Part shown: positions 1,399 to 49,563 of the stretch, in pieces
How positions within the stretch are numbered: the first letter of the stretch is position 1
Layout: every line of letters begins with the position of its first letter
Virus record (IMG/VR): IMGVR_UViG_3300010403_000010
Location: 1 to 49,563 of that record
From: a virus
DNA: 49,563 nucleotides
Reading direction: 5' to 3' (one strand)
Made by a program: the position numbers and the translations under genes
Notes under the pieces: generated by a model
Database searches by the model: none
The model's input: only the letters and a program-made list of their open reading frames with translations
What the model was told of the DNA's origin: nothing

Positions 1399-1434
1399 TT
1401 CTGCGACTAGAGGGTGATGCCACTAGGAGCAGGA
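1399..1434 (+). promoter_or_regulatory. Leader hairpin copy 1 (before decoration gene)
   Basis: Stem TTCTGC / GCAGGA, tandem G-A mismatches (GA/GA), stem CTAG/CTAG, an A-A mismatch, GG/CC and a GTGATG hexaloop at 1414-1419. The AGGAG ribosome site at 1425-1429 is in the right arm, 9 nt before ATG 1438. In the other four copies the inner stem is CTGG/CCAG; here one G-C pair is replaced by A-T on both arms, a compensatory change that supports a real RNA structure. Confidence 0.85.
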
Positions 1435-1437
1435 ACC

Positions 1438-2196
1438 ATGGGCGCGATTCTGACGAAAATTCCTCCCGGCATGGACATGCGGCAATCCGCCACATGGTGG
1501 AACGACATGTACGCCGTGCCCGGCGAGTTCACGACGCTGGCCGCGGACACCGCCGCCGCGGTCGCCATCGACGCCGGCGTCGAGAACGGCGTCTTGAAGC
1601 TGACGGCGGGCTCGTCCGACAACGGCGAAGCGTCCGCGTACACTGCGTCCGTTTTCAAGTTTGCCGATAGCCGCTCGATCATCGGCGAGGCATTGATCAA
1701 GTACACCGAAGTCGCGACCAACGCTGCCAACGTCGCGTTCGGCTTTTGGTCGGCTCCGGGGGCTGACCTGCTTGTCGATAACGGGGCTGGACCCGCAACG
1801 TCGGCGAGCGGGGCGATGTTCTACAAGCTCGACGGCGCGCTGGTGTGGAAGTGCATCAGTTCAAAGTCGACGACACAGACGATCTCGACCGTCAAGACGT
1901 CTGGGCAACCGACGACGTCGGTTCCGGGCGTGGCTCAGTACGTGCGGCTGCGGGTCGAGTTCAGCGCGGTCGGCGACATGGGCCAGGACCAGGGCGAGGT
2001 CACGTTCTGGATCGACGGCAAGCAAGTTTACGACGCCAATGACACGAGCAAGAACACGCCCATCAAGCACATCGTTACCTACACGAGTGCCGCGGCGATG
2101 GCGTTGGTTCTGTACATCAAGTCGGGTTCGGCCGCGAGCGAAATTCTGCGGGTCGACGACGTCGGGTTTAGCCAGACGCGCACCTACGGCGTCTAG
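1438..2196 (+). CDS. Putative head decoration / capsid-associated protein
   Basis: 252 residues, between the scaffold and capsid genes. The N-terminus carries MRQSATWWNDMY; the rest is Ala/Val/Thr-rich with alternating beta-strand character and a segment (VRLRVEFS...QGEVTFWIDGKQVYD) resembling a concanavalin/LamG-type jelly-roll carbohydrate-binding fold. ATG 1438 follows leader hairpin 1 at proper spacing. An ATG inside the hairpin loop (1417) is in frame but would put the ribosome site inside the protein, so 1438 is preferred. The decoration role is inferred from position and the high-expression leader; a minor fibre is the alternative. Confidence 0.55.
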   Translation: MGAILTKIPPGMDMRQSATWWNDMYAVPGEFTTLAADTAAAVAIDAGVENGVLKLTAGSSDNGEASAYTASVFKFADSRSIIGEALIKYTEVATNAANVAFGFWSAPGADLLVDNGAGPATSASGAMFYKLDGALVWKCISSKSTTQTISTVKTSGQPTTSVPGVAQYVRLRVEFSAVGDMGQDQGEVTFWIDGKQVYDANDTSKNTPIKHIVTYTSAAAMALVLYIKSGSAASEILRVDDVGFSQTRTYGV

Positions 2197-2218: not shown

Positions 2219-2253
2219 TTCTGCGACTGGAGGGTGATGCCCCAGGAGCAGAA
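2219..2253 (+). promoter_or_regulatory. Leader hairpin copy 2 (before major capsid gene)
   Basis: Pairs TTCTGC (2219-2224) with GCAGAA (2248-2253), then tandem GA/GA mismatches, CTGG (2227-2230) with CCAG (2242-2245), a bulged A (2231), GG with CC, and loop GTGATG (2234-2239). The AGGAG ribosome site is base-paired. The outer stem is the same as in copy 1. Confidence 0.87.
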
Positions 2254-2256
2254 GCG

Positions 2257-3444
2257 ATGGCCACGAAGAAAATCAACCGCAAGGAACTCGTCCGCCTCTT
2301 CGAGAGCGAAGGCGTCGAGAAGGGTGCGCAGGTCCTTCAAGAAGGGCTCGAAGCCAAGGAACTCCGCCTGGATGACCTCTCGATCCGCGACCTCTTCGAA
2401 GCCGCGGTCGTGGACGGCAACGGCAAGCCGTGCGGTCGCGATCTGCTCTACGAGATGGACCCGAAGCGTGGCAACTGCGATGCCCGCAAGATCGTGATCC
2501 TCGAAGCCAAGGGCGCGGTGGATACGTCGGCGTTCAACAACATCACCGGGCAGTACGTTTTCAACCGCGTGAAGGAATCGTACGACGACCCGGAGTTCAT
2601 CGGCGACGAGCTTTGCACGACGCAAGACACGCACCTGATCGACGGCGAGAAGATCCCCGGCGCCGGCAATCTCGGCGACGTGGCGCAGGTCGTGGCGGAG
2701 CGGGAAGAGTATCCGTACGTCGGCCTCAACGAAGAATGGACGATCACGCCGCCGACGGACAAACGCGGCTTTATCGTGCCGGTGACGCGCGAAATCGTGA
2801 TGCTTGACAAGACGGGCCTCGTCGTCGCCGCGGCCCAGAAGACCGGGCGGGCGATGGGCCTCAACAAAGAGAAGCGAGTGCTCGACGTCGTGTTCGGGAT
2901 CGTGAACACGTACAACCGCAACGGCACGGCGACGAACACGTACCTGACCAGCGGGGCGTACATCAACCAGCAGGCGAACCCGCTCGTCGACTGGACCGAC
3001 ATCGAAAACGTCGAGTTGCTTTTCGACGCGATCACGGACCCGAACACGGGCGAGCCGATCACGGGCTCGATCGACACGATCATCGTGCCCAGCGCTCTGC
3101 GGCGCACCGCCAACCGCATCCTCATGGCCAGCGAGATCGCCCACGTCGACAACCAGGTCGCCGCGTCGACGATCCGCACGTGGAGCAAGAATCCCTACAG
3201 CGGCGAGGTATACCGCGTGATCTCCTCGCCGTACGTGAAGAACCGCACGTCGTCCGCGTCGACGTGGTTTGCGGGGCGGCCGAAACGGGCCTTCCTGTAC
3301 ATGCAAAATTGGGGGATCGAGACGTTGCAGGCGGCGCAGAATTCGGAGGCCGATTTCCTGCAAGACATCGTAAGCCGCTACAAGGTCAGCGAGCGCGGCG
3401 CGGCCCACAGCTACGAGCCGCGGTACATGACGAAGAACACTTAG
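2257..3444 (+). CDS. Major capsid protein (HK97-fold type)
   Basis: 395 residues, the expected size and position for the coat protein: after protease/scaffold and before head-tail joining genes. The first ~90 residues are charged and helical (KKINRKELVRLFESEG...), like a delta domain. The body has capsid-like features: a long beta-hairpin region, GFIVPVTREIVMLDKTGLVVAAAQKTGRAMGL resembling the spine helix, SIDTIIVPSALRRTAN in the A domain, and the C-terminal AFLYMQNWGIETLQAAQ. It starts 3 nt after leader hairpin 2 and is followed by a terminator-like hairpin. The family is assigned from layout and sequence character, not by alignment. Confidence 0.85.
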   Translation: MATKKINRKELVRLFESEGVEKGAQVLQEGLEAKELRLDDLSIRDLFEAAVVDGNGKPCGRDLLYEMDPKRGNCDARKIVILEAKGAVDTSAFNNITGQYVFNRVKESYDDPEFIGDELCTTQDTHLIDGEKIPGAGNLGDVAQVVAEREEYPYVGLNEEWTITPPTDKRGFIVPVTREIVMLDKTGLVVAAAQKTGRAMGLNKEKRVLDVVFGIVNTYNRNGTATNTYLTSGAYINQQANPLVDWTDIENVELLFDAITDPNTGEPITGSIDTIIVPSALRRTANRILMASEIAHVDNQVAASTIRTWSKNPYSGEVYRVISSPYVKNRTSSASTWFAGRPKRAFLYMQNWGIETLQAAQNSEADFLQDIVSRYKVSERGAAHSYEPRYMTKNT

Positions 3445-5886: not shown

Positions 5887-6335
5887 TGCGCGACTACGAA
5901 ACACTAGTGGCGGTCAAGGCGAAGTGGGACGCCGCCGGTCTTTCCGAGGTCGTCATCGGTGGCCTGCTCGAAGTCGACTTCGTCGAGCGCGACAACGTCG
6001 AAGAGCGGCGCCCGAAGCTGCCGTACGCGACGGTGGCGTGCGGGCCGGACGGCAAGCCGAACGAGATCAGCTTCGGCGGCGAGATCGACTATCGCCGCGT
6101 CAGGATCGTTCTCTACGGCGACGCGAAGGCCACGGTGGCATCGGCGGGCCTTTTGATCGATGCGGCGTTCTCAGAGCAAAGCCTGGACATCGCCAACGCC
6201 GACTGGATGCGGACCGAGCCGGTGCCGGGGCAGCGCGGCGGCAAGCTTGAGCGCGGCGATAAGGTCAACGAGGGCGAGACATGGCGGGCGATCTTCGAAT
6301 ACCGAGTTTGGACAAGCCGGCCGAAGAACGTGTGA
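5886..6335 (+). CDS. Putative tail terminator / completion protein
   Basis: 149 residues; ATG 5886 overlaps the preceding TGA. Two-layer alpha/beta pattern: helix (DYETLVAVKAKWDAAG), strand, a beta hairpin (EISFGGEIDYRRVRIVLYGD), helix (VASAGLLIDAAFSE) and a C-terminal strand (WRAIFEYRVWTSRP). This order and its place before the tail tube gene match gpU-like tail terminators. Confidence 0.6.
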   Translation: MRDYETLVAVKAKWDAAGLSEVVIGGLLEVDFVERDNVEERRPKLPYATVACGPDGKPNEISFGGEIDYRRVRIVLYGDAKATVASAGLLIDAAFSEQSLDIANADWMRTEPVPGQRGGKLERGDKVNEGETWRAIFEYRVWTSRPKNV

Positions 6336-6514
6336 TCGTCGAACGGGACAAATGCACGTGGGACGACGAGTCGCGCGACGTCGCCGGTCCCGAGATCGGG
6401 AAGAACGTCGTCTCGGTCAAGTGCCCGGAGTGCCATCGGCAGGTGGGCGTGTTCGTGGGGCAACCGTACCGGCACGTGTGCGGGGCGTTGTTGTTGGCGA
6501 AGAAAGCGGAATGA
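6332..6514 (+). CDS. Small zinc-ribbon-like protein
   Basis: 60 residues from GTG 6332, a 4-nt GTGA overlap with the previous gene, the coupling used repeatedly in this genome. A longer start at 6281 would overlap by 55 nt and is less likely. CPECH and HVCG place four Cys/His residues about 20 residues apart, a minimal metal-binding ribbon. Function unknown. Confidence 0.6.
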   Translation: MIVERDKCTWDDESRDVAGPEIGKNVVSVKCPECHRQVGVFVGQPYRHVCGALLLAKKAE

Positions 6515-6639: not shown

Positions 6640-6664
6640 CTCCTGGAGGGTGATGCCCCAGGAG
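6640..6664 (+). promoter_or_regulatory. Leader hairpin copy 3 (before tail tube gene)
   Basis: CTCCTGG (6640-6646) pairs fully with CCAGGAG (6658-6664); A6647 is bulged; GG/CC closes the GTGATG loop. The whole AGGAG ribosome site is in the stem, 6 nt before ATG 6671. Confidence 0.87.
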
Positions 6665-6670
6665 ACAAAC

Positions 6671-7072
6671 ATGCCGTTCAAACCGGGCTACATCAACGGA
6701 ATCGCATGGACGCCGACGGGCGGAAGCCCCACGACGCTTTGCGACTTCCGCCACTCGCACAGCGAGAGCGACGAAGGCCACGAAGTCACGTCGAGTTGCC
6801 ACAACGGCATCCAGGCGTTTATCGCCTCGATCCTTCGCGGCGAAGGCACGGCAAGCTTTCACATCACGACGGCGTCGCAGCCGTGGTCGTTGGGCATCGT
6901 GGCGCAGGCGACGGGCACGTTCTCGTGCATGTACGGCAGTCAGAGCGTCTTCACGATCCCGGCCTTCATCTCCCGCGTCAATTACCAGAACGAGACGGCG
7001 GCGGGGACGGACTACGACGTGACGTGGAAACTTAGCGCCGAGAGCGGCACGTATTCGCGGCCGTCGCCGTAG
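6671..7072 (+). CDS. Major tail (tube) protein
   Basis: 133 residues, beta-rich, with tube-like elements: MPFKPGYINGIAWTP, SRVNYQNETAAGTDYDVTWKLSAESGTY. Position fits: after tail terminator, before the frameshifted tail chaperone and tape measure. ATG 6671 is preferred over the upstream in-frame ATG inside the hairpin loop because the ribosome site lies between them. The leader hairpin is shared with capsid and portal, consistent with tuned expression of a structural protein. Confidence 0.7.
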   Translation: MPFKPGYINGIAWTPTGGSPTTLCDFRHSHSESDEGHEVTSSCHNGIQAFIASILRGEGTASFHITTASQPWSLGIVAQATGTFSCMYGSQSVFTIPAFISRVNYQNETAAGTDYDVTWKLSAESGTYSRPSP

Positions 7073-7293
7073 CGAGATTGAGCGGCAAGACGGGAAGCCC
7101 TTAGAACGAATGCCCGTCGCCCGGCGCGCGTCATGGCAGCAAGGGGGTCCGGCGCCGGATACGTCGCTCAGAAACCGCAGCCTGGAGGCGGCAGGGTCAA
7201 TCCGGTAACTCCATCGAGGGCTAAGAGAAAACGGGCGTTTGTCGCAATCCCGTCCGGTATGCCGCCGAGCGACACAAATCACAGGGGAGATGC
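7073..7293. other. 221-bp intergenic region after the tail tube gene
   Basis: No convincing gene. An open frame from ATG 7133 runs to 7318 (61 codons) but overlaps the next gene and is rich in Gly/Pro/Arg; I do not call it. No terminator with a U-tract is seen. AGGGGAG at the end is the ribosome site for GTG 7294. Confidence 0.4.
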
Positions 7294-8299: not shown

Positions 8300-9535
8300 G
8301 TGGCCGACGACAAAATCCAGTGGCAGCTTGAGATCGACGGCAAGGGTGCTCTCGACACGCTCGACAAGGTGAAGTCGTCGGCGAAGGAGATCGACCTTTC
8401 GACGAAGACGCTGCGTTCGCTCGACATGATGGTGCGGAGTCTGCTCGAAACCCACCGCATGGCGTCGCAAGTGGCGGACGCGGTCAAAATGGAGCGCCGC
8501 GAGCGGCAAGACAACTTGCGGATAGCGGAGCGTCAGAAGCAAGTCGAGCGCGATCGCGCCGAGTCGGCGGCCAAGGCGGCGAAGACGGAACGCGAGAACG
8601 CGCTCAGCGGCCTGCGTAACGTCGCGATCGGCTCGGGACTCGGCGCGTTGGCGATGGTCAAGGGGATGGCGGGCAGCGGCTTCTCGGACACGCTGCAAGG
8701 GCAGCAGGCCCAGGTGTACGGGCAATTGCTCAATCGGCAGGTGGCGTCGATCTTCGCGCCGTTGCTCGAAGAGAAGACGAAGTACGTGGCGCAGATGACG
8801 CAGTGGCTGCAGGGGCTTGACGCGCCGCAGCGGGAATCGATTCGACAGATGACCGTGTTCGCGACGAGCCTGGGGGCGCTCGGCTACGTTGTGCCGAAGA
8901 TCACGAAGGGGATCGCGGCGGCGTTAGAGATCGGCATAGGCGGAACGGGAGCGCAGAGCGCGGCAACGATGGTCGGCACTGGCGCTGTGGCCGGCAGAGC
9001 GGCGGGGGCCGCGGCTGCGACGCGAACGGACCTCATGGCAATGGCCGGCCCGATCGGTTTGGGCATTGCCGGTATTCTGGCGGCGGCTTCGGCGACGGAG
9101 CGTGGGCGACAGTCGCTTATTGAGCTTGGCAAGTCTGCGGAAAGCTTGGCGGAAAAAGCCGCACCGGCAGCGACAGGGGCCATTAACTTCATCACCGACA
9201 ATTTCGAGGGATTGAGCGACATACTCAAAGGCGAATTCAAGTGGTACAACTTCCTTCCATTCGGCACTGGAAGGCAGGTCGCGCAGTTATTTGGCATGAA
9301 CGTAAACGAGAGGGACGCGACCAAAGATGGCGGACTCTCGCCCGTTCCAAAGGGGCTCGAAGACATCGGCCGCGACTACGAACGGATCTTCGAGGCGGCG
9401 ACGAAGATCGATTTGCAGCAGAGGCAAGTGAATCTGCTCGAACAGATCGCGACCAACACGGGCAGACCGCTGGTGCAAATGCCACCGCCAGGTTTGCAAG
9501 GTGCGGTCGGACTGAATAACTTAATCGGCTTTTAG
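8300..9535 (+). CDS. Tape measure protein (short)
   Basis: 411 residues from GTG 8300. N-terminal coiled coil (~20-110, many Glu/Arg/Lys heptads), a hydrophobic glycine/alanine-rich centre (~95-115 and ~200-270, with ALAMVKGMAGSGF and MAGPIGLGIAGILAAASA) and a helical end. This mix is typical of tape measure proteins, which set tail length and enter the host envelope. At 411 residues it is short; with ~0.15 nm per residue the tail would be roughly 60 nm (inference). It follows the chaperone directly. Confidence 0.75.
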   Translation: MADDKIQWQLEIDGKGALDTLDKVKSSAKEIDLSTKTLRSLDMMVRSLLETHRMASQVADAVKMERRERQDNLRIAERQKQVERDRAESAAKAAKTERENALSGLRNVAIGSGLGALAMVKGMAGSGFSDTLQGQQAQVYGQLLNRQVASIFAPLLEEKTKYVAQMTQWLQGLDAPQRESIRQMTVFATSLGALGYVVPKITKGIAAALEIGIGGTGAQSAATMVGTGAVAGRAAGAAAATRTDLMAMAGPIGLGIAGILAAASATERGRQSLIELGKSAESLAEKAAPAATGAINFITDNFEGLSDILKGEFKWYNFLPFGTGRQVAQLFGMNVNERDATKDGGLSPVPKGLEDIGRDYERIFEAATKIDLQQRQVNLLEQIATNTGRPLVQMPPPGLQGAVGLNNLIGF

Positions 9536-9714: not shown

Positions 9715-9751
9715 GCAGGACATGATCGCACAGATACGGTGAAAACGCAAT

Positions 9752-9776
9752 CCTCTGGAGGGTGATGCCCCAGGGG
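9752..9776 (+). promoter_or_regulatory. Leader hairpin copy 4 (before tail-tip gene)
   Basis: CCTCTGG (9752-9758) pairs with CCAGGGG (9770-9776), including one T-G wobble and one C-G pair where copy 3 has T-A. Bulged A9759, GG/CC and loop GTGATG are conserved. The start GTG 9784 lies 7 nt downstream. Confidence 0.85.
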
Positions 9777-9783
9777 AAAGAAT

Positions 9784-11022
9784 GTGGGGCTCACGCTCAG
9801 CGATCCCGACTTCGTAACGACTCGCGGTCCACGCATTAGCACGTCGACCGGTTCGGTTATCCATTACACGATGTCAGCGGACATCAACGAGCACTTCCCC
9901 ACCGACGGCTCGCCGCGCACGTTCTACGGCATTTGCCGCGTCAAGGCCGAAGACAAATTCAACTTCATCAAAGCGATCCTGCCCGACGTCATCGAAGACA
10001 CTTCGAACCCGATGTATGGCTCCATCATGCGGATGGACCCGTACTACGACGCGGCGTCCGCGCCGGCAACGCTGGTCAAGTTCGCTCGCAATCCTCTCTT
10101 GCGATTCAATCCGCAGCGGCATCCGATCCACCGGAGGGCGTACGCGGTCGACGCTGTGGTGCTGCGTGGCAACGGCTTCCCGGCGCAGTCGTCCAGCGGC
10201 GAATTGACGTTTCGGACCAAGCAATTTGTGCCACTGACGGACATCCTGACATCGGTTGAAGGGTACGTCGACATCGGCGTGACGTGGAAAGACTTGCCCT
10301 ACGAAGTCGAGATCATCGACTCGGCAACACCGGACGCCAACTTCGCCAACACGATCGCGAACAGTTTCGCCGATTCGGAGATCGTGCGCTACTGCGTCTT
10401 TCGTCCGCAGCCGAAGGGCCAGAACGCTCAGATCGCGGGCGGCAAGGCGTACTTGATCGACGACGACGGAACGATCTTGCTAAGCGGCGGCAACCCTGTT
10501 CTTTCGCCGCTTGAATCGACCGTTTACTACAACCCGGCGACGACGTTCTCGATCACGCTCAAGATGGTGCCGCGCGTGCCCTACGCCGCGGAGGCACTTC
10601 GCGGCATGTGCAACGACGCGAATAATATCCGGCTGCCGGAAGAGATTTTGAAGTACAAGCCGGACACGGGAACGCTGCGATTTCTCGGCTACGAAGTAAG
10701 CGATCCGTACTACACGTGCAGCGGCGTCAAGGTTTTCGATATCACCTACTCGATCGGCTATCGCCCAGGCGGCAATCGGACGCCGAATCGCGGCTGGAAC
10801 TCGACGTGGTGCGGGTCGAAGCGAGACGTACGGCGATTCGTATTCGGCGAGTACACCGGCGGCGTCATCAAGACGATTGACGGCAACACGATCGCGCTTC
10901 CGGTCACGAACAATTCCCAAGTCCCGCCACAAGAGGCACGGCGCACGACGGCGCAGGCGTGCATCGCGCCGTTCGCGGATTTACAGCATCTCTTTCGCTT
11001 CGAAGGAGTCGCTGTCCCGTGA
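9784..11022 (+). CDS. Tail-tip / baseplate-like protein
   Basis: 412 residues from GTG 9784. An ATG two bases earlier is in another frame. Beta-rich throughout, with long strand-loop patterns ([41 protein letters not shown]) and a C-terminal half containing several Cys. It lies between tape measure and the collagen-like fibre, where distal tail and tip proteins are coded. It carries the structural leader hairpin, so substantial expression is likely. No family is recognised. Confidence 0.6.
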
Positions 11023-13811
11023 ACGAGCGCGACGTACAACCGATCCGGCCGGGCGGTCAGCTATCAGCCGGCGAATTCAACCGGGCAATGTCCCGACTGG
11101 ACAACCTCGCCGACTTCTCCGGTAACGACATCGGTTCGTCGGACGAGCTTGGCCAACTTCTGCTTAACACGACGACGCCGCACAAGACCAATATCCGCAT
11201 CATCAGCGGCACGAATCCCTACGTGTGGGAAGAGGTATACCAGGAGCCGGACAACGCGACATGGCTGCCTACTAACGCACGCTCCGGCACGCTGACCGAG
11301 TTGCCGGCGATCGAGCGTAATGGCGAAGATGACGTCGAGCCGGGCACGGTGTGGGAGGGGACATACGAGCCGGGGCCGAGCGGCGCAGGCCGCTGGATGT
11401 TCAACGCGTGCTGTGGTGGCGTTGGTCCGACCGGGCCGACGGGCCCCGGCGGCGGCGATACCGGGCCGGCCGGTCCGGCAGGCGCAACCGGGCCGACAGG
11501 CGCTACAGGCGCGACAGGACCGACGGGCGCTGGCGTCACGGGGCCGACAGGCGCGACGTCAACAGTCCCAGGTCCGACAGGCGCGACAGGTCCGAGTATC
11601 ACCGGCCCGACCGGTGCGGATTCTACCATACCCGGACCGACAGGTCCGACAGGCGCTTCGATCACCGGTCCGACCGGACCGACAGGCGCGACGTCCACGG
11701 TCCCCGGCCCAACAGGCGCGACAGGACCGAGCATCACGGGTCCAACTGGGCCGGCATCTACTGTACCTGGGCCGACAGGCGCGACTGGGCCTGCATCGAC
11801 AGTCCCAGGTCCGACAGGCGCGACGGGCGCGACCGGCGCGGCCTCTACCGTGCCCGGTCCAACAGGCCCAGCAGGCGCGAGCGTCACAGGTCCGACAGGA
11901 GCAGCTTCGACCGTGCCCGGCCCGACAGGCGCAACCGGGGCCACGGTCGCGGGGCCGACGGGCACGTTCGGCGGGCCGGGAACGTACTGGACGTTGACGA
12001 ACATCGCGGGTGGGACGCCGGCGGCGAATCAGTTCACGCTGAACTCCGCGACCGCGACGTCGGTGGCGACGATCAAGGCGCACATCACGGACGCGGTCGG
12101 CGCGGACGAAACGGCGTATCTCACGTCGATCGCGGCGGGGGACATTATCCGCCTCGCGCCGATCGACGGCACGGTGACGCCGTTCATGCTTGGGACGGTG
12201 AATACGATCACGTCGGCCGCGAGCGTGTTTACGGTTGCCGTGACGAACCTTGGCGGCAGCGGGACGTTCGCGACGTCGACGAACTACGGGCTATGGATGG
12301 CAAAGAAGGGGACCGACTCCACAGCGGTCGGTCCAACAGGCCCGGCCGGAGCGTCGGTCACAGGTCCGACAGGCGCGGCATCAACTGTACCGGGACCGAC
12401 CGGCCCGACAGGCGCGGTTTCTACCGTGCCTGGGCCAACAGGCGCGACGGGTGCATCAGTCACGGGCGCGACGGGTGCGACCGGTCCGGCAGGCGCGAGC
12501 GTCACAGGTCCGACCGGGGCGGCTTCTACCGTGCCTGGTCCGACCGGCGCGACTGGGGCGGCCTCTACTGTCCCAGGTCCAACAGGCCCGGCCGGAGCGT
12601 CGGTCACGGGTCCGACAGGCGCGGCGTCTACTGTGCCCGGTCCGACGGGTAGCTATGGCGGTGTGCAGACGCATTGGACGTTCAACGACTTTGGGGGCGG
12701 CACGCCAAACTCGGGCGAGTTCACGATCGAGGGAACGGGTCTGACGTCTGCGACGCGCATCCGTTTTAGCGAGAACGACGCCCACGGGGCGAGCCAGAAC
12801 GCATTCTTTACCGCGCTCTCAGGCAGCGGGGACCGGCTAAGGATCGGAGCCATAGACGGCGGCTCCACGCCGTACCTGATCGCGGCGACGGTTGCGTTAA
12901 ACCATGTCGGCAGCGTGTGGGTCGTCGACATCACCGCACAGGCCGGCGCGGGAGGGCTCGTTAACGCAGTCAATTACGGCGTGGCGTTTTCGCTGCGCGG
13001 ATCGGCCGGCAACGACGGTCCGACCGGCCCGACCGGCGCGTCTTCCACAGTTCCCGGCCCGACAGGGCCAGCGTCAACCGCGCCCGGACCGACCGGTCCA
13101 ACAGGCGCGGCCTCTACCGTCCCAGGTCCGACAGGCGCGACGGGCAGCGGTCCGACCGGACCGACTGGGGCGGCGTCAACTGTACCGGGTCCGACGGGAC
13201 CGGCCGGCGCGTCAGTCACAGGTCCGACTGGGGCGGCTTCGACTGTCCCAGGTCCGACCGGACCGACAGGCGCGGCGTCAACCGTGGCGGGTCCGACAGG
13301 CAGCTATGGCGGCGTACAAACGCACTGGACGCTTGCGGGGCAGACGGGTGGCTCGCCAAGCTCCGGCCAATTCACGACGGACAACACGACTCTCGGGTCG
13401 GTGACGCGGCTGCGGATCGCAGACAACGACGCGAACGGGGCGAATAACAGCAGCTTCTTTACGGCGCTGAGTGGGTCTGGCGATTTGCTGCGGATCGGTG
13501 CAATCGATGGAGGAGCGACGCCGTCCATGATCGCCGAGACGGTCGCGCTGAGTCACGTTACGGGCGTGTGGATCGTTGACGTCGTTGTGCGGTCGAGTTC
13601 GGGGTCATTGACGAATGGCGTGGCGTACGGGATCGCATTTGCGCTGTCGGGCTTGAATGGCGAGCCTGGGCCGACGGGTCCGGCTGCGGAAGACGTTACG
13701 TTTACGATGTACAAGCCAGACTATACAGATCCTTGCAATCCGGTTTTGAAGTCGCGCACGATGCGACTTGTGTCGGGATCTTGGGCCACTAGCGATAGCG
13801 ACTACGCATGA
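11019..13811 (+). CDS. Collagen-like tail fibre with three interspersed globular domains
   Basis: 930 residues from GTG 11019 (GTGA overlap). Residues ~1-130 form a non-repetitive attachment domain. Gly-X-Y repeats dominated by [22 protein letters not shown] follow in three blocks (~135-312, ~437-545, ~668-764). Between and after them are three related ~115-residue beta-rich domains, copies 2 and 3 being most alike (YGGVQTHWT..., [19 protein letters not shown]). The C-terminus adds a short [17 protein letters not shown] tail. Collagen-like repeats in phage fibres form trimeric stalks; the globular repeats likely bind receptor or stabilise trimers. Gly-Pro-Thr repeats are also O-glycosylation substrates in some bacterial collagen-like proteins. 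Confidence 0.85.
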
Positions 13812-16335: not shown

Positions 16336-18015
16336 ATGACCGCGTCAGAACTCGCCCGATTCCTGGGCAACGCGATATTCGGGACGATCCGCTTCCGCCG
16401 CGGAGCCGCGGCAGCATTGCCGACGCTCAAGGATGGCGAGCCGGCATGGACGAGCGACACGCATCTCCTTTACGTCGGCAGCGTGAGCAGCGGCAACATT
16501 CTCGTTACCGGCAGCGGTGGCGGGGGCGGCGCTCCCGCGGGCACTGGCTACGTCCACGTAACGAACGGCGTCTATGACACGCCGTCGGACATCATCAACG
16601 CGACGACGGTGACGACGAACGCGAACTTGACGGGGCCAATCATCAGCGTCGGCAATGCGACGAGCGTCGCCCAGCAGACGGGCACGGGCACGATCTTCGC
16701 GATGCAGGCAAGCCCGACGTTCACCACGCAGATCGTGACGCCAAAGGTCGTCGGCGGCCCGTCGACATCTTCGACATTGACCTTTCAGACGACGACGGCG
16801 GCGGGCGCGACGGGCGCCGACATGATCTTCAAGGTCGGCAACAACGGCGCGACCGAGGGGATGCGGATCAAGAACGACGGCACGGTGAACGCGACGTCGT
16901 TTATCGGGGCGCTCACCGGCAACGCCTCCACGGCCACGACGGCTTCGGCAGTGGCCGTGGGCGGCATCACCGGACTTGGAACTGGCGTCGGAACGGCCCT
17001 CGCGATTAACGTCGGCTTGGCAGGAGCTTTCGTCACGTTCAACGGTGCGCTGGGCACGCCATCCAGCGGCACGGTGACGAATCTAACCGGCACGGCTTCG
17101 ATCAACATCAACGGCACGGTTGGAGCGACGACGCCGGCCGCGGGCACGTTCACTTCATTGCAAGCGACCGGCAACATGACCGTCGACGGCGATTTACTCG
17201 TCAGCGGCAATACGGTCACATTCGACACGGCAACGATCACGGTCGAAGACCCGCTTATCAAGCTCGCGAAGGCCAACGCGGCGGACGCAGTGGACGTCGG
17301 GCTCTACGGGCTCTACACGTCCTCCGGCTCCAAGTATTCCGGTCTGTTTCGTGACGCGACAGACGGCAAGTGGAAGCTGTTTACCGCACTCCAGGAAGAG
17401 CCGACGACGACAGTCAACACGGGCGGGACAGGATACACGGTCGGAACGATCGTAGCATCGCTCGAAGGAAGTCTAGCTAATGCCACAGGACTGCCTGTTG
17501 CGGGCGGCGGCACGGGAAACGCTACAGCGACAGCCTACGCGCCGCAGTTTGGCGGCACGACATCGACGAATCCGCACCAATCCGGTACCGCCGGAACCGC
17601 TGGCCAAGTTCTCAAGTCTGGAGGCGCGGCCGCCGTGGGCGCTTACGCCGACGACGTGGCCTCGTTCGGCATTACGATCGACGGTGGCGGCGCGGCGATC
17701 ACGACAGGCGTGAAGGGCTACGTCAATATCCCCTACGCTTGCACGATCACGAGCGCGACGCTTACCGGCGATCAGACAGGCTCGATCGTCATCGACGTGT
17801 GGAAACTGGCCTTCTCGACGTCCGCTCTGCCGACCGTCTCCAACACGATCACGGCGAGCGCAAAACCGACATTGTCGTCCGCCAAGGGTTCTCAGGACAC
17901 GACGCTTACCGGCTGGACGACGAGCGTCTCGGCGGGAGACACGGTCGGGTTTAACGTCGATTCGTGCACGACGACCACGAAGGCGACACTCGTACTCAAA
18001 GTCAAGAAGTCGTAA
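16336..18015 (+). CDS. Long tail fibre protein
   Basis: 559 residues; ATG 16336 with AAAGGG upstream. N-terminal ~50 residues form a fibre attachment segment (RFRRGAAAALPTLKDGEPAWTSDTHLLYVGS), a motif seen at the start of many phage fibres. Then come Gly/Thr/Ala-rich repeats, GNASTATTASAVAVGGITG- and PVAGGGTGNATAT-type sequences common in fibre shafts, and a beta-rich C-terminal domain (ITIDGGGAAITTGVKGYVNIPYACTI). Likely receptor-binding fibre. Confidence 0.75.
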   Translation: MTASELARFLGNAIFGTIRFRRGAAAALPTLKDGEPAWTSDTHLLYVGSVSSGNILVTGSGGGGGAPAGTGYVHVTNGVYDTPSDIINATTVTTNANLTGPIISVGNATSVAQQTGTGTIFAMQASPTFTTQIVTPKVVGGPSTSSTLTFQTTTAAGATGADMIFKVGNNGATEGMRIKNDGTVNATSFIGALTGNASTATTASAVAVGGITGLGTGVGTALAINVGLAGAFVTFNGALGTPSSGTVTNLTGTASININGTVGATTPAAGTFTSLQATGNMTVDGDLLVSGNTVTFDTATITVEDPLIKLAKANAADAVDVGLYGLYTSSGSKYSGLFRDATDGKWKLFTALQEEPTTTVNTGGTGYTVGTIVASLEGSLANATGLPVAGGGTGNATATAYAPQFGGTTSTNPHQSGTAGTAGQVLKSGGAAAVGAYADDVASFGITIDGGGAAITTGVKGYVNIPYACTITSATLTGDQTGSIVIDVWKLAFSTSALPTVSNTITASAKPTLSSAKGSQDTTLTGWTTSVSAGDTVGFNVDSCTTTTKATLVLKVKKS

Positions 18016-18363: not shown

Positions 18364-19758
18364 GTGGCGTATACGAACTTTTGCTGCCGTAGCGGCGGCA
18401 ACAACCTGAATGCCGGCACGCGCAAGGGCGACACTACGGAACCCGGCACGGCCCCCTCGTTCGCTTACAACGGCACGTTCGCTACCGACACGTTTACGGT
18501 CACGTCGGGCGCTCAGGGCGGCTCAACGACGAACCCTCAGGCCGATGGCGTCGTCGCCGGCGACTTCGTGCATGTCTCGAACGGGGCAGTCGGGAGAATC
18601 GCGAGAGTCGCCAGCGTCACGACGACGACGATTGTGCTTGACACGACGGCGACAGTTGGGAGCGGGACTGGGGCGACGTTGGCCAACGTTGGCGGGGCGT
18701 GGGCGGGACCGAGCGGCGCGACCGGCTTTCCGATTGGAACTTTGACAAATGCCGTCACTAACACGTCGGGCAACAACGTAAGAATCAACCTCAAAAACAA
18801 CCAGACGTATTCGATTTCGGCGTTCTTGTCGAGCAATCAGGCTGCTGTGTCAGTCCAAGGCTACTCCAGTTCATACGGCGATTTTGGCAAGGCGACAATC
18901 GACGCGAGCACCAACGCCATTAGCCTTTACTCCCAGACGGGGGCCGGGACGCTGTTGGCTGACGCGATCCTGCAAAACAACGGGGCGAGCGGTATCAACG
19001 CAGGGATTGCAGTGACCGCCGGCGCATTGACGAGAGTCGTCGTAAACACCGTTCGTGGCGCTGGTATTTCCGTGACCGGCACGGTGCGCATCGAAGAGTG
19101 TGAAACCTATGCGTGTAACTCTGCGAACTCTGCATCATCCGGAGGCGTCCTTGTTTCCGGTTCGGGAATAGCTCGTATCAGTCGCTGCACAATCCATGAC
19201 AATGTTGGCAGCAACAGCAACGGACTGGTTCTGACCGGCGCGGGTCCCGTATTCGTTAAAAACACGATCTTCGACAGCAATGAAAACGATGGTGTTTTGA
19301 TCACGGCGACGAGTGTTGCCACCTTTGAAGATTGCGATTTCTACAACAACGGTCGAGACGGCATCGAATCAACGGCGACTCAGGCCCAGCTTTATAGCGA
19401 GAACTCCAACTTCATCAAGAACGGTCGTTACGGAGCGGAGCAAGCTGCCTCGACGGTGCGCAATTGGTTCATCGTGAATGCTGGCTACGGCGCGGGGACG
19501 GCGGCCAATGCGAGCGGCACGACGTCAGGGGCAAACATTCAGGAAACCGGAGCCGTAACCTACGCCTCCAACGTAACCCCGTGGGTCGATCCCGCCAACG
19601 GCGATTTCCGCATCAATCTCGCGGCGGCGAAGGGGGCCGGACGCGGCACGTTTACCGAGACGGCGGCGAGCTACACGGGAACGGTCGGCTATCCCGATAT
19701 CGGGGCGGCTCAGCACATAGACCCGGCGAGCGGCGGGAGTTTTGCCTGGGTCGGCTAA
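18364..19758 (+). CDS. Right-handed beta-helix tail spike/fibre protein
   Basis: 464 residues from GTG 18364. After an N-terminal segment (YTNFCCRSGGNNLNAGT), residues ~150-400 show repeating short strands with N-ladder features (LKNNQTYSISAF, IEECETYACNSANSASSGGVLVS, ISRCTIHDNVGSNSNGLVL, VKNTIFDSNENDGVLI, FEDCDFYNNGRDGIES), typical of parallel beta-helix pectate-lyase-like folds. Phage spikes of this fold bind or cut surface polysaccharides. No catalytic residues can be assigned by eye. Confidence 0.72.
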   Translation: MAYTNFCCRSGGNNLNAGTRKGDTTEPGTAPSFAYNGTFATDTFTVTSGAQGGSTTNPQADGVVAGDFVHVSNGAVGRIARVASVTTTTIVLDTTATVGSGTGATLANVGGAWAGPSGATGFPIGTLTNAVTNTSGNNVRINLKNNQTYSISAFLSSNQAAVSVQGYSSSYGDFGKATIDASTNAISLYSQTGAGTLLADAILQNNGASGINAGIAVTAGALTRVVVNTVRGAGISVTGTVRIEECETYACNSANSASSGGVLVSGSGIARISRCTIHDNVGSNSNGLVLTGAGPVFVKNTIFDSNENDGVLITATSVATFEDCDFYNNGRDGIESTATQAQLYSENSNFIKNGRYGAEQAASTVRNWFIVNAGYGAGTAANASGTTSGANIQETGAVTYASNVTPWVDPANGDFRINLAAAKGAGRGTFTETAASYTGTVGYPDIGAAQHIDPASGGSFAWVG

Positions 19759-19770
19759 ACAGGAGGATGT

Positions 19771-21564
19771 ATGCGTCTTTGTCTGAATATGATCGTTCGC
19801 CAGGAAGCGAAAACCATCGAGCGGTGCCTGCGCTCGATCACCCCGCATATCGCGTGCTGGGCGATCACGGACACGGGGTCGTCGGACGACACGCCGCGCA
19901 TCATCGAACGCGTCATGGCGGAGCTGGGCATCCCCGGCCGGCTGACGTTCCGGCCGTTCGACAATTTCTGCAACGCCCGCAACGCGGCCTACGCCGAAGT
20001 GCGGAACGTGGACGCGGCGTTCGACTACGTGCTCTTGTCCGACGCCGACATGGTGCTCACGGCGACCGATCCCGACTGGCACAAGAAACTGTCGGCGAAG
20101 GTGCATTCGATGCCGGTGCGCTACGCCGACGGCAAGCTCGAATATTCGTTGACGCGGATCGTTCACTGCAATGCGCCGCTCGCGTTCCGCGGCGTGACGC
20201 ACGAGTACCCGGACACGACGCCGCACTTCCCGGTACTGATCGACGGGGCGTGGTTCGTCGATCATTTGGACGGCGGCTGCCGCGGCGAGAAGACGGAGCG
20301 GGATATCCGGCTTTTGACGAAGGGACTCACGGACGAGCCGGGCAACGTGCGATATATGTTCTACCTCGCGCAGTCGTACTACTTCGGCGGTCAGCGAGAG
20401 AAGGCGATCGAGTGGTACACGAGGCGGATCGAGGCGGGGCCGCACGGCATCCCCGAGGAGCAGTTCATTTCGGGCTACCGTATTGCGCAGTGCTTGCAGG
20501 CGATGGAGCGGTGGGCGGACTTCGTCTACGCGTGCTGGGATTTGCATCAGAAGTTTCCGCACCGTGCCGAGCCGTTCAATCTGCTCTCGCTCCACTACTT
20601 GCAGCGGCAGCAAAACCGTCTCGCGTATCTGGTCGCGAGTGAGGGCGCCCGCATCCCGCAGCCCAGGGCCGACGCGCTGTTCGTCGAGCCGGAAGTCTAC
20701 AAGTGGCGGCTTCGCGACACGATGGCGGTCGCGGCGTTCTACCTGGGACGGCGCGAGGAGGCGCTAGTCCTCAATCGGCAAATCCTCCCCAGCGTGCCCC
20801 CACCGGACCACTCTCGCATCGAAGCCAACATCAAGCTTTGCGAGCCGCAGATCAGTAATCCAGTGGGGCGGGTGAAGGAGTTCGATCTCAAGCGGTGTCT
20901 GGTCGTCATGACGATCGGCGACCGCGAGCCGGCGATCCTCAAGATCCGCGACTACGCGTGCGGGTTCGAGACGGTCGTGATCGACCACAGCGAGGACGCC
21001 CAAAACCGCAAGATCGGGGCGTTCTCCTGGAAGGGCCATAAGTGGCACAATATCGCCAAACTATTCACGTCCGAGGTCGTCAAGGCCGCGGACTTCGATT
21101 ACGTGTGGTTCCCTGACGACGACGTCGACATTAGCGGCCGGGACGCCGAACGACTCTTCCAGTGGGCGCACAACTACAACCTGCAACTCTGTCAGCCAAG
21201 CTTGTCGGCGGACTCGGCCTGCACCAATTGGCCGATCACCAAGCACGTGCCGGGCAGCGAAGTGCGCCGCACGAACTTCGTGGAGATCATGGCGCCACTG
21301 TTCCGGATGGACGCACTCGCGAAGTGCCTGAGCACGTTCACGGAAAACAACTGCGGTTGGGGGCTCGACCTCATCTGGCCGCGGATACTCGGCGACCGCG
21401 ATATCGGCGTCATCGACGCTGTGCAGGTGAAGCACACGCAGATGTGGTCGTCGCCGGCGTGGACGCTGCCGAGCGGCAAGACGCCGCACCAGGAGATGCA
21501 CGAGACGCTCAAGCGGCACAACATGGACTTCGAGGCGGCGCGGGCGGCGGTCGGCGTCGTATAG
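19771..21564 (+). CDS. Two-domain glycosyltransferase (GT2 + DUF707-like)
   Basis: 597 residues; ATG 19771 with AGGAGG upstream. Residues ~1-220 are a family-2 glycosyltransferase: MIVRQEAKTI, DTGSSDDT (34-41) and the SDADM (90-94) DXD-type nucleotide-sugar/metal site. A middle helical segment (~200-300) resembles TPR. The C-terminal ~230 residues show WFPDDDVDIS (~446), LCQPSLS, HVPGSEVRRTNFVEIMAPLF and NNCGWGLDLIWP, the pattern of DUF707 glycosyltransferase-like proteins. It follows the fibre genes; candidate acceptors are fibre proteins or the host surface (inference). Confidence 0.8.
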   Translation: MRLCLNMIVRQEAKTIERCLRSITPHIACWAITDTGSSDDTPRIIERVMAELGIPGRLTFRPFDNFCNARNAAYAEVRNVDAAFDYVLLSDADMVLTATDPDWHKKLSAKVHSMPVRYADGKLEYSLTRIVHCNAPLAFRGVTHEYPDTTPHFPVLIDGAWFVDHLDGGCRGEKTERDIRLLTKGLTDEPGNVRYMFYLAQSYYFGGQREKAIEWYTRRIEAGPHGIPEEQFISGYRIAQCLQAMERWADFVYACWDLHQKFPHRAEPFNLLSLHYLQRQQNRLAYLVASEGARIPQPRADALFVEPEVYKWRLRDTMAVAAFYLGRREEALVLNRQILPSVPPPDHSRIEANIKLCEPQISNPVGRVKEFDLKRCLVVMTIGDREPAILKIRDYACGFETVVIDHSEDAQNRKIGAFSWKGHKWHNIAKLFTSEVVKAADFDYVWFPDDDVDISGRDAERLFQWAHNYNLQLCQPSLSADSACTNWPITKHVPGSEVRRTNFVEIMAPLFRMDALAKCLSTFTENNCGWGLDLIWPRILGDRDIGVIDAVQVKHTQMWSSPAWTLPSGKTPHQEMHETLKRHNMDFEAARAAVGVV

Positions 21565-22080: not shown

Positions 22081-22818
22081 ATGGTCCGCATTCTGTCGTC
22101 TTTGTTCGTCCTCTTGCTGGCGTCTGTGGCCAGTGGCCAGTCCGTCACACTTCCCGAGACGACGACCGGCGTCCCTGGTCAGTGGATCGTCTTGGCTCCT
22201 CTCAAGGTCGACGGCGGCGTGGTCAAGTGGCGATTCGATCCGGCACTGCAAGAGGTCAATCTTGGTCAATTGCTGCCCGACGACATGGTGGCCAAGCTCA
22301 AAGGCAAGGTGGTCACGACCGCGGCTCCTGGGAGATACAAGTATGAAGCTTGGAACGCAAAAGGGGACGTGGCTTCGGACATCGCCGTGGGATGGGTGGT
22401 TATTCTCGGACCAACACCGCCGCCAGTTCCGCCGACGCCGCCCGTGCCTCCACCGCCGCCCGTGCCGCCTTCACCCGCGCCCTTTCCGCTTCCAGGTTTT
22501 CGGGCTCTTGTCGTCTACGAAGAGGTTGGGGGAGTTGCTCTTTTGAGCAAGGCGCAAACAAACGAATTACTCGGCGAAGAACTGAGCAAATACCTCAACG
22601 CCAAGTGCGTGAAAGGCCCGGACGGTAAGCAGGCCGAGTTTAGGATTTGGAAGAAGGACGTGGCTCTGGTCGGGGCCGAGAAACACTGGAGGGACGCAAT
22701 GGCCAACGTCAAAGGCCCGTTTCCGCGGCTGATCGCGTCCGATGGCGTGAACTGGTTCGACGAGCCGCTTCCCGAAGGCGGCGCGATCCTGACACGCATT
22801 CGAAAGCTTGGAGGTTGA
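22081..22818 (+). CDS. Secreted protein with proline-rich linker
   Basis: 245 residues; ATG 22081, two bases after the preceding TGA. The first ~20 residues are a classic signal peptide (MVRILSSLFVLLLASVASGQ). A ~95-residue beta-rich domain follows, then a proline-rich linker (~112-143, PTPPPVPPTPPVPPPPP-type) and a ~100-residue alpha/beta domain (ALVVYEEVGGVALLSKAQTNELL; VALVGAEKHWRDAM). It immediately precedes the papain-like protease gene, so an exported partner or a cell-envelope-acting protein is likely. No enzymatic motif is seen. Confidence 0.65.
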   Translation: MVRILSSLFVLLLASVASGQSVTLPETTTGVPGQWIVLAPLKVDGGVVKWRFDPALQEVNLGQLLPDDMVAKLKGKVVTTAAPGRYKYEAWNAKGDVASDIAVGWVVILGPTPPPVPPTPPVPPPPPVPPSPAPFPLPGFRALVVYEEVGGVALLSKAQTNELLGEELSKYLNAKCVKGPDGKQAEFRIWKKDVALVGAEKHWRDAMANVKGPFPRLIASDGVNWFDEPLPEGGAILTRIRKLGG

Positions 22819-22819
22819 G

Positions 22820-39574: not shown

Positions 39575-39578
39575 TCCG

Positions 39579-44987: not shown

Positions 44988-44989
44988 CG

Positions 44990-45014
44990 TTCCTGGAGGG
45001 TGATGCCCCAGGAG
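44990..45014 (+). promoter_or_regulatory. Leader hairpin copy 5 (before portal gene)
   Basis: TTCCTGG (44990-44996) pairs with CCAGGAG (45008-45014), bulged A44997, GG/CC, loop GTGATG (45000-45005). The AGGAG ribosome site is in the stem, 6 nt before ATG 45021. It begins right after the terminase stop. Confidence 0.87.
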
Positions 45015-45020
45015 CGACCG

Positions 45021-47681
45021 ATGACCGCGATCAACGGAACGAAGCCCTCGCCGACGCGCGACGAGATCAAGGCCCGCCGCCGCCGCGTCCGCGAACAGCT
45101 TGAACTGCAAAAGATCGAGCAACTCGAATCGATCCTGTGGGACGGCTTCGGCGGCTCCGATCTGTGGTTCGCGATGCGCGAGCGCTACGGCGGCGGCGCG
45201 AGCGGCACGGAGTGGGTGCCGATCTCGAACACGTCGGACCGCAAGAAGGGCCAGAACTGGCCGCTGTGGCGCACCGAGGTCGAACTCGGCGAGCTGCGGC
45301 AGAAGTCGCGCATCGTGTGCCAGTCCAACGACGCCGCGATCTGCTTACTCGGCAACCTGCAGAATCACATCGTGGGCAAAGGATTCACGTACAAGTGCCA
45401 ACCGAAGAAGGGGCTCGACCAGTCGCCCGAGGCCGGCGTCCAGGCCGGCGCCGGCGTCGACCAAATCGTGAACGCGACGCAGGCGTTCGTCGACAAGTTC
45501 CTTGCGGTCAATCGCTGGACGGCGACGATCAACCCGTCGCTGCTGACGTCGCCCGGCGTGGGCAGTCGCGAGCGCGAGACGGTGCGGCGCACGTACCGCG
45601 ACGGCGAGACGTTCCTGCGGCTATTCCAGGCCGACGGCGGTATGACGTACGTGCGCTTCGTCGAGCCGGAGCAGGTGACGCAGAACGGCGGCGCGAACCT
45701 CCAGGAGAGCGAAGGGTGGAGCTTCGGTATCCAGCACGCCATGGAGCCGTTCGAGGACGAGGAACGTCGCGTCGCGTACCACGTGCAGTACAAGTCGTTC
45801 GATTCGGGCGAGGGCGCGCAGGGCGAGATCGTGCCGGCCGCGGAGATGGTTCACGTCAAGCTTCCCGACGAGGACGCTGCGATCAAGCGCGGCACGCCGG
45901 CGTTCAGCTTCGACACGCTCGACGCGTTCGTGCGTGGCTCGAAGGGCCAGCGCAATCTGAGCATCGCGGCGAGCATCCAGGCGGCGACGGCGGAAATGTG
46001 GAAGCACCAGGTGGGGACGGTGCAGCAGATCACGTCGATCGCGCAGGGGCTGAGTCAGCGGCAATACGACGACCCGATCAGCGGCAAGACGAAGTACGTC
46101 GACAAGATCGATCCGGGCTCGATCCGCCGCATTCCCGCCGGCATGGAGCCGGTGCCGATGAACTTCGCCACGGGCTCGAAGCAGGAGTTTATTGCCGTGT
46201 GGCAGGGCGATTACCGTGCCGGCTCGCGGGCGTTTCAGGCGCCCGAGTATTTCACCGGCGACGCGAGCAACGCGAACTACTCGTCGACGAAGGAGGCGGG
46301 CACGCCGTGGGTGATCGCGTCGGAAGTGATTCAGACGCACTTCGGCGCGGTGTTCGCGTTCGTCGTGTGGAAGGCGATTGCGTACGCGATCCAGTGCGGA
46401 CTGCTGCCGCCGCAAGCACTGCAAGTCGTCGAGTTGCAAGTGGAGCCGACGGCGGTGCCGCCGACCGATCCCTTGCAAGCGGCGCAGGAGAACCAGATTT
46501 ACGTGTCCACGAAGATCAAGAGCCGCAAGACGGCGCAGATGGAGCTGGGCCTCGATCCCGACCACGAGGACGCGAACATCGAGGAGGACGAGCAGCGGTT
46601 CGGGATGGGCGCGGGCGGCAATCCGCTGGCGGCGATGATGGGCGGCGATGATGGCGGCGGAGCCCCCGGTGGCGCACGGGCCCCGAGTTTTCCGGGTGGA
46701 AATCAATTGGCGGAGTCGTTCGACGAGGGCGATCATCCGCGGGCCAGCGACGGGCGGTTCGGTAGCAAGGCGGGCGACCACGCTCACGCGCAGTCGCGAA
46801 GCGCGAAGACGTCAGAGCAACACGCCGCCGCTTCGGAGGCGCACGCCGACGCGGCAATGCACCATCGGACAGCGTCCCGCAACACGACGGGCGACGAGCA
46901 AAAGCGGCATTTGCAAACGGCGGCGGAGCATGAGCGGTTCTTTCGTTACCACGCTGATCGTGCGGCTAACGTCGACGCTCCGAAGAAAGTGGAGACGTGG
47001 GCCAGTTACGTCTCCAAGATCCCCGCGAAGGTGTATTCGGCCGTGAAGGAGAAGGTGCAGTCGCGGCACGCGGCACTCAAGGAGCGATACGGCGACGGTA
47101 TGGCGATGGCGATCATGGGCGCCGGCATTGCCGGCTTGCCGATTCCCGTGCCGGGCTCGTCGCTGATCACGGCCGCCCCGGTGATTGTCGCGGCCGAACT
47201 GGTGCGGGCGTTCAAGGGTGCACTTGCCCAGGACACGAAGTTCGGATCGATCCAGGAGAGCGACGAGCCGCAACTGACGCCCGACGAGATCGAGCAACTC
47301 GGCAAGCAGTTCATCGCGGAACTGCTCAAGGATTGCGGCGTCGACGTGACCGAGTCGTTGCTCGAAAGCTTTACCGGCATCGACGCCAACGGGCACAAGT
47401 GGGTGAACGGCAAGCAAGTGCCGATTGACGCCACGACGACCGACGACCACGCGGACACGCTCAAGGCGCTGCACGCGGCGTCGATCACGCCGCAGCACGA
47501 TCCGCAGCACGTGAAAGACGTGGTCGCGAAGATGGCGGCCACGCTGCCGACGTTGCAACTCAAAGAGGTCGCGAAGAAGTTCGGGATCAACAACACCGGG
47601 GCTTCGAAGGTGGCGATCGCGGACGCGATCCACCGCAAGATCGTGGATCGGCGGGAGATGTTTCAGCGGACGCAGCGATGA
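45021..47681 (+). CDS. Portal protein (lambda-like) with long C-terminal extension
   Basis: 886 residues from ATG 45021 (the in-frame ATG in the hairpin loop is rejected because the ribosome site follows it). Residues ~1-540 look like a lambda gpB-type portal: RVREQLELQKIEQLESIL, RTYRDGETFLRLFQADGG, VHVKLPDEDAAIKRGTPAFSF, DYRAGSRAFQAPEYFTGDASNANYSSTKEAGTPW. At ~568 the motif GDHPRASDGRFGS opens a ~320-residue extension with helical, Ala/His-rich and glycine-rich hydrophobic segments (MAIMGAGIAGLPIPVPGSSLI) and a SAP-like end (LKEVAKKFGINNTGASKVAIADAI). The extension exceeds normal portal length and may be a fused head protein. Confidence 0.85.
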   Translation: MTAINGTKPSPTRDEIKARRRRVREQLELQKIEQLESILWDGFGGSDLWFAMRERYGGGASGTEWVPISNTSDRKKGQNWPLWRTEVELGELRQKSRIVCQSNDAAICLLGNLQNHIVGKGFTYKCQPKKGLDQSPEAGVQAGAGVDQIVNATQAFVDKFLAVNRWTATINPSLLTSPGVGSRERETVRRTYRDGETFLRLFQADGGMTYVRFVEPEQVTQNGGANLQESEGWSFGIQHAMEPFEDEERRVAYHVQYKSFDSGEGAQGEIVPAAEMVHVKLPDEDAAIKRGTPAFSFDTLDAFVRGSKGQRNLSIAASIQAATAEMWKHQVGTVQQITSIAQGLSQRQYDDPISGKTKYVDKIDPGSIRRIPAGMEPVPMNFATGSKQEFIAVWQGDYRAGSRAFQAPEYFTGDASNANYSSTKEAGTPWVIASEVIQTHFGAVFAFVVWKAIAYAIQCGLLPPQALQVVELQVEPTAVPPTDPLQAAQENQIYVSTKIKSRKTAQMELGLDPDHEDANIEEDEQRFGMGAGGNPLAAMMGGDDGGGAPGGARAPSFPGGNQLAESFDEGDHPRASDGRFGSKAGDHAHAQSRSAKTSEQHAAASEAHADAAMHHRTASRNTTGDEQKRHLQTAAEHERFFRYHADRAANVDAPKKVETWASYVSKIPAKVYSAVKEKVQSRHAALKERYGDGMAMAIMGAGIAGLPIPVPGSSLITAAPVIVAAELVRAFKGALAQDTKFGSIQESDEPQLTPDEIEQLGKQFIAELLKDCGVDVTESLLESFTGIDANGHKWVNGKQVPIDATTTDDHADTLKALHAASITPQHDPQHVKDVVAKMAATLPTLQLKEVAKKFGINNTGASKVAIADAIHRKIVDRREMFQRTQR

Positions 47682-49455: not shown

Positions 49456-49563
49456 GCCCCACCCTCCGTAGCGCTTGATGAGGGCATTTTACGACCGTGA
49501 GTCTTGCAACGCAATTCCGTTTGTGGGTAAGTTCGCGTTATGGGAGCCGTTCGCACGCCGCCG
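49441..49563. repeat. Terminal direct repeat (right copy)
   Basis: Identical to bases 1-123. It includes the start of the leftward gene (49455) and, at 49540, a second view of the protease start, truncated by the window end. Weak divergent promoter candidates lie between them (TTGCAA at 49504-49509; TAAGTT at 49528-49533). Confidence 0.9.

Follow-up and report, generated by a model that had tools for sequence, protein, structure and literature searches.

The nearest known kind of element to the one described here is the start-associated sequence (SAS) of actinobacteriophages. SAS and ESAS are repeats in Cluster K mycobacteriophages and Cluster EF Microbacterium phages, and their function is unknown (PMC3203893, PMC7302621). 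SAS are short (13 bp), present in many conserved copies per tailed-phage genome, found in one orientation, rare elsewhere, and they precede genes with larger upstream gaps. In Cluster K, SAS lie 3-7 bp before start codons, include the Shine-Dalgarno (SD) sequence AGGAG, and are associated exclusively with non-structural genes. SAS were judged to be non-palindromic, and the authors reported little support for an RNA hairpin in the ESAS repeats (PMC3203893, PMC7302621).

Three other systems act at translation starts. The coat operator of ssRNA phages of the MS2 group is a short start-site hairpin in which a stem purine is unpaired and the loop has an adenine (PMC3561173). In the Com/mom system of phage Mu, structure in the mRNA keeps a late gene untranslated, and binding of a zinc-finger protein to a hairpin relieves this block; the Com motif, CC(N)2-3GAG, lies in a loop (PMC6483171). 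T4 RegA is one protein that acts at the translation start of about 30 mRNAs, repressing early and middle genes through sites that are A+U-rich and unstructured (PMC3014915).

We analyzed a window of 49,563 nucleotides, the whole of IMG/VR virus record IMGVR_UViG_3300010403_000010. The window has a 123-nt terminal repeat (1-123 = 49441-49563) and, judged from its sequence, is a complete-looking circular virus genome. Some loci related to the capsid of this phage are in Planctomycetota MAGs, and a planctomycete is therefore the likely host.

Five hairpins and the genes behind them

We found five related hairpins, all on the coding strand and each 3-7 nt 5' of a start codon. The hairpins, the genes that follow them, and one neighboring gene are as follows.

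1399..1434, + strand: hairpin copy 1, before the lectin-like decoration gene; UUCUGC-GA-CUAG-A-GG-GUGAUG-CC-A-CUAG-GA-GCAGGA, with the SD AGGAG in its 3' side
1438..2196, + strand: gene behind copy 1; ConA/lectin-like jelly roll, putative decoration protein (predicted fold, position)
2219..2253, + strand: hairpin copy 2, before the major capsid gene; outer UUCUGC/GCAGAA, tandem G-A, CUGG/CCAG, and an apex of bulged A, GG/CC and loop GUGAUG
2257..3444, + strand: gene behind copy 2; major capsid protein (PF25209, E=2e-18)
6332..6514, + strand: gene for a small CxxC...HxC protein with zinc-finger-like spacing, just 5' of the copy 3 leader
6640..6664, + strand: hairpin copy 3, before the putative tail tube gene; CUCCUGG/CCAGGAG, bulged A, GG/CC, loop GUGAUG
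6671..7072, + strand: gene behind copy 3; putative tail tube protein (position)
9751..9777 (also as 9752-9776), + strand: hairpin copy 4, before the putative distal tail gene (GTG start); UCCUCUGG/CCAGGGGA, with bulged A, GG/CC and loop GUGAUG at the apex
9784..11022, + strand: gene behind copy 4; putative distal tail protein, directly following a tape-measure-like gene (8300-9535)
44988..45016 (also as 44990-45014), + strand: hairpin copy 5, before the portal gene; CGUUCCUGG/CCAGGAGCG, with bulged A, GG/CC and loop GUGAUG at the apex
45021..47681, + strand: gene behind copy 5; portal protein (PF05136, E=2e-15; phrog_21, E=8e-30)

All five hairpins fit the pattern CTRG-A-GG-GTGATG-CC-(A)-CYAG, and the apex is invariant: an A bulge (A-A in copy 1), a GG/CC clamp and a GUGAUG hexaloop. 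An earlier, sequence-only reading of this DNA had placed the five copies at these coordinates, ending 3-7 bases before the starts, and had described the apex in every copy, lower stems of CTAG/CTAG or CTGG/CCAG, and tandem G-A pairs with CTGC/GCAG in copies 1 and 2. We found the same sequences and pairings throughout, and gaps of 3, 3, 6, 7 and 6 nt between hairpin end and start codon for copies 1-5. That reading had also argued, from the varying frame of the loop ATG, that the element is not a leader peptide. The GTG and ATG of the loop share the frame of the gene in three copies (1, 3 and 5) but not in the other two (2 and 4), so conservation acts at the level of RNA rather than for a peptide, and a leader peptide is ruled out.

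The gene labels of the sequence-only reading fared unevenly. Family models confirm the capsid and portal proteins, and relatives support the capsid start at 2257. The decoration label fits both position and fold: the model of the product of 1438-2196 is a ConA/legume-lectin-like jelly roll (pLDDT 74), the gene is flanked by a head gene (100-1260) and the capsid gene, and its orthologues occupy this position in relatives. The prediction of a lectin-like protein that decorates the head is thus reasonable. The labels "tail tube" and "tail tip" come from gene order around the tape-measure-like gene and nothing further; the single-sequence structure model of the 6671-7072 product was uninformative (pLDDT 45), and the 9784-11022 protein had no family match.

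Several other features of the genome were recorded. ARAGORN called a 67-nt tRNA-Ile at 1332-1398, the last base of which directly abuts hairpin copy 1. ARAGORN alone made this call, the Rfam tRNA model gave no match, and the sequence may be a tRNA-like hairpin rather than a tRNA. The 220-nt gap 3' of the putative tube gene (7073-7293) is no more stable than shuffles and has no Rfam match. A long collagen-like GPT-repeat gene (10959-13811) lies upstream of a gene (16336-18015) whose protein contains Mtd_N, the N-terminal domain of the major tropism determinant. A glycosyltransferase family 2 + DUF707 protein (19771-21564) adjoins a beta-helix protein (18364-19758), with a papain-like protease (22808-23623) nearby. 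An exact 105-nt tandem duplication (25365-25574) is immediately 5' of a tyrosine integrase gene (25593-26729). The phage also encodes a DNA polymerase III beta clamp (39549-40691; PF00712, PF02767) and a Mom-family protein (33929-34528; PF25680, E=2.6e-11). Mom is a DNA modification protein, exemplified by that of phage Mu. ARAGORN called an odd "tRNA-???" within the Mom-family gene (33936-34011), which is probably spurious.

Folding, covariation and distribution

The hairpin is the predicted minimum-energy fold of the isolated leader in copies 1, 2, 3 and 5, with folding z-scores of -1.7, -3.8 (-3.84 before rounding), -2.7 and -2.8, respectively. For copy 4, pairing with downstream GTGGGGC competes with the hairpin in a 51-nt piece, and the hairpin forms in a longer context. 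The stability of the stems is about -16 to -20 kcal/mol. Beyond the hairpins, the leaders gave no sign of a larger structured RNA. They matched no Rfam family, and folding energies were not, or only marginally, below those of shuffled sequences.

The stem sequence changes while the pairing persists. In an alignment of the five copies, 82.9% of cells were paired, and both sides changed in 5 of 14 pairs, a number equalled in 4/500 shuffles. The covariation score was 0.35, compared to 0.145 in shuffles, and none of 500 shuffles reached 0.35; the signal derives from five paralogous copies of one genome, two of which have the same outer flank. Most of the covariation signal was lost when the 3' side was shifted by 1-3 columns. 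As a separate control, the 5' flank was swapped for 12-mers drawn from the same genome. Random flanks paired equally well with p = 0.013, 0.005, 0.027, 0.024 and 0.040 for copies 1-5. The combined Fisher p was 1.5e-5 for all five copies, and 1.1e-4 without copy 1, which was dropped because its outer flank is the same as that of copy 2.

The apex is less variable than the stem. A constant apex on a stem that re-pairs is what sequence-specific binding sites carried by a structural scaffold usually look like. Our results support the notion that an RNA structure with the SD in its 3' arm is under selection at several structural genes.

Within the window, the core, GAGGGTGATGCC, occurs in five exact copies, all on the + strand and precisely at the five hairpins. 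When up to 3 mismatches were allowed, the 22-mer CTGGAGGGTGATGCCCCAGGAG had 4 matches, compared to 0 in 100 dinucleotide shuffles. Each of the four has at most 1 mismatch to the 22-nt consensus, and copy 1 is a diverged fifth. As the sequence-only reading had proposed, a covariance model was built from the five copies. It recovered exactly these five sites in this genome at 46-55 bits (runner-up, 8.9 bits), these being the same sites on which the model (R1) was trained.

We found no convincing copy elsewhere. Capsid relatives that are 36-57% identical and have a common head-gene order lack the element, both by sequence and by covariance-model match. Their orthologous capsid, decoration and portal leaders, with starts assigned by a simple rule, have no similar hairpin. 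Against 22 related loci, the covariance model had a sole match, a chance palindrome within an ORF of L005/L007. IMG/VR scans for the exact motif (one complete, one among the matches listed) gave single matches, mostly stemless, and pattern scans of 392 Planctomycetota genomes and phage records gave scattered single matches only. IMG/VR queries with the portal, gene-9784 and tail-tube proteins found no relatives. Rfam has no family for the element, with no match for copies 1, 2 and 5. At the other loci fetched, 8 of 167 occurrences of GAGGGTGATGCC had a lower stem of at least 4 pairs, compared to 5/5 here, and no such locus carries two copies; pairing of GAGGGTGATGCC elsewhere is chance pairing. 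By these searches of sequence databases, the hairpin family is known from a single genome.

The sequence-only reading had inferred a conserved 5' regulatory RNA and had named its absence upstream of structural genes in relatives as a refuting result. A selected RNA structure that contains the SD and precedes structural genes is supported; conservation across phages was not found. The refuting result thus partly came about, and the relatives are too distant for it to refute the proposal.

Predicted closure of ribosome sites and competing explanations

The proposal that the hairpins hide AGGAG agrees with the predicted structures. The SD is within the stem, in the 3' arm, in all five copies (AGGAG; AGGGG in copy 4). 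The median opening energy was 16.3 kcal/mol at the five motif starts and 8.6 kcal/mol at 45 other starts (p=1.5e-4), an approximate comparison for a set of 50 hand-chosen gene starts. The ribosome sites of the five genes are thus predicted to be closed by default. Ribosomes that terminate on the terminase gene could open portal copy 5, the stem of which starts immediately 3' of the stop codon of that gene. Copies 1-4 are at least 22 nt from the stop codon of the preceding gene.

Given the SD in the stem, the covarying fold and the opening energy, the elements are most likely RNA operators that close ribosome sites and have a tip for a shared factor. We put the probability at roughly 0.6 that they are SD-closing translational operators in structural-gene leaders with an apex likely read by one trans factor. 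The five elements would be paralogous, cis-acting operators in mRNA leaders, with the SD in the 3' side of the stem so that the ribosome site would be shut by default. A trans-acting factor, probably a phage RNA-binding protein that is made or freed late, would recognize the apex of all five hairpins and set access to the SD. Sharing this factor would couple synthesis of the capsid, decoration, portal and tail proteins. We infer both the shared factor and the coordination of the five genes.

The switch could work in either direction. An activator might open the stem, as Com does in Mu, or a repressor might lock it, as at the ssRNA coat operators. We lean slightly toward activation because genes behind stems of about -16 to -20 kcal/mol would hardly be translated unaided. 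Shutting the ribosome sites of abundant virion proteins would be paradoxical unless something opens them. The small CxxC protein encoded at 6332-6514 is a speculative candidate for a factor that binds the hairpins; it matched no known RNA-binding family and no Com family in Pfam, PHROGs and PDB sequence searches. More tentatively, and with the odds against it, a single phage RNA-binding protein, possibly a virion protein, might set all five genes together as a translational regulon of virion assembly.

The best of the alternatives is that each hairpin is a strong, self-contained ribosome site that works without a trans factor. The 30S subunit would dock on the 5' arm and loop, where GGA-G-GGUGAU is complementary, apart from a bulge, to the 16S rRNA tail AUCACCUCC, and would then unzip the hairpin and free the downstream SD (a standby site or enhanced SD element). 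The 5' arm and loop pair with the tail at -12.9 kcal/mol, compared to -6.6 for the SD proper, and the strength of this pairing is within the top 0.27% of windows. Docking would also account for the use of the element by virion genes and for why no regulator was identified. However, 11% of random hexaloops pair as strongly when joined to the fixed arm CUGGAGG, so docking leaves the invariant loop unexplained. Far stronger complements are available (e.g., loop UGAUCA, -20.1), and copy 1 has a G to A change in the docking strand (-10.7) with a partner change that preserves the hairpin. We consider 16S docking unlikely.

Two further explanations are each quite improbable. The hairpins might protect or process mRNA, as 5'-end stabilizers or endonuclease sites, and overlap the SD incidentally. 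They are stable and lie in intergenic-gap leaders, and a nuclease or a protector might recognize the invariant internal A with GG/CC. Such a role needs no SD occlusion, yet all five copies occlude the SD 3-7 nt from the start, and a scan of four copies found no promoter-like sites adjoining them. Alternatively, the core is an imperfect inverted repeat, and structural genes are often co-regulated at transcription, as would be expected if the elements were DNA operators or promoters, imperfect dyads bound by a phage transcription regulator and placed at starts by coincidence. A dyad does not readily explain why the orientation never varies, and the one-sided A breaks it in 4/5 copies. The elements include the SD and are too near the start codon for a promoter, and the G-U pairs and tandem G-A mismatches of the stems suit RNA.

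Least probable is a recent spread of start-associated repeats, in which good ribosome sites were duplicated and the fold has no regulatory role: a 22-nt core identical in three copies, a single lineage and the start-associated repeats of other phages fit this notion, but the copies diverge outside the core and still pair, and copy 1 has a G-C to A-U double change within the stem.

Comparison with known systems

The reading of the hairpins as SD-closing operators has partial parallels in Mu. This phage, too, has a Mom-family protein, and it has a small CxxC protein. However, CC(N)2-3GAG is confined to the stem in copies 2, 3 and 5 and is absent from copies 1 and 4, and the Mom gene of this phage has no such hairpin. 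In Rfam family RF03012 (Mu-gpT-DE), the 3' side of the consensus hairpin likewise leads into a CAGGAG SD and AUG. Only copy 3 matched this family, at 17.3 bits (E=3.8) against a gathering score of 49, and membership is ruled out by a best score so far below that value.

The likeness to the ssRNA coat operators was put forward by the sequence-only reading as an analogy only, and we agree. The MS2 operator has a 2-bp clamp above the bulge. The elements here share the 2-bp clamp, the bulged A in the stem (A-A in copy 1) and an adenine in the loop, GUGAUG. In contrast to the MS2-type tetraloop at the replicase start, the loop here has 6 nt, and there are five copies at five genes of a DNA phage with the SD inside the stem. 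None of the phage proteins examined was recognized as a coat-type RNA-binding protein. The T4 RegA regulon resembles the proposed system in that one phage protein acts at many translation starts. It differs in that RegA sites are unstructured and in early and middle genes, whereas here there are hairpins at structural genes.

To our knowledge, comparable translational control is known mainly from ssRNA phages, where it acts on a single gene, and from T4 early genes, where the sites are unstructured. If one factor does read all five hairpins, this would be a virion-gene translational regulon in a DNA phage and would also provide a new RNA-protein pair for tethering tools. A virion-assembly regulon, if true, would correspond, across several genes, to the coat operator of ssRNA phages.

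The closest likeness is to SAS: five copies, all on the + strand, 3-7 nt before starts and with the SD included. The SAS consensus sequences GGGATAGGAGCCC (Cluster K) and GGGAAAGGACCCC (Cluster EF) have no excess over shuffles in this genome with up to 3 mismatches. The element of this phage differs from SAS in that it is on the structural module and is a covarying, SD-hiding hairpin. What is new here is that a start-associated element has structure, masks the SD and lies before virion genes. SAS-type repeats of several actinobacteriophages were reported without a mechanism. In this phage the layout is combined with a clear RNA fold that covers the ribosome site, which opens the mechanism to testing by leader-reporter fusions.
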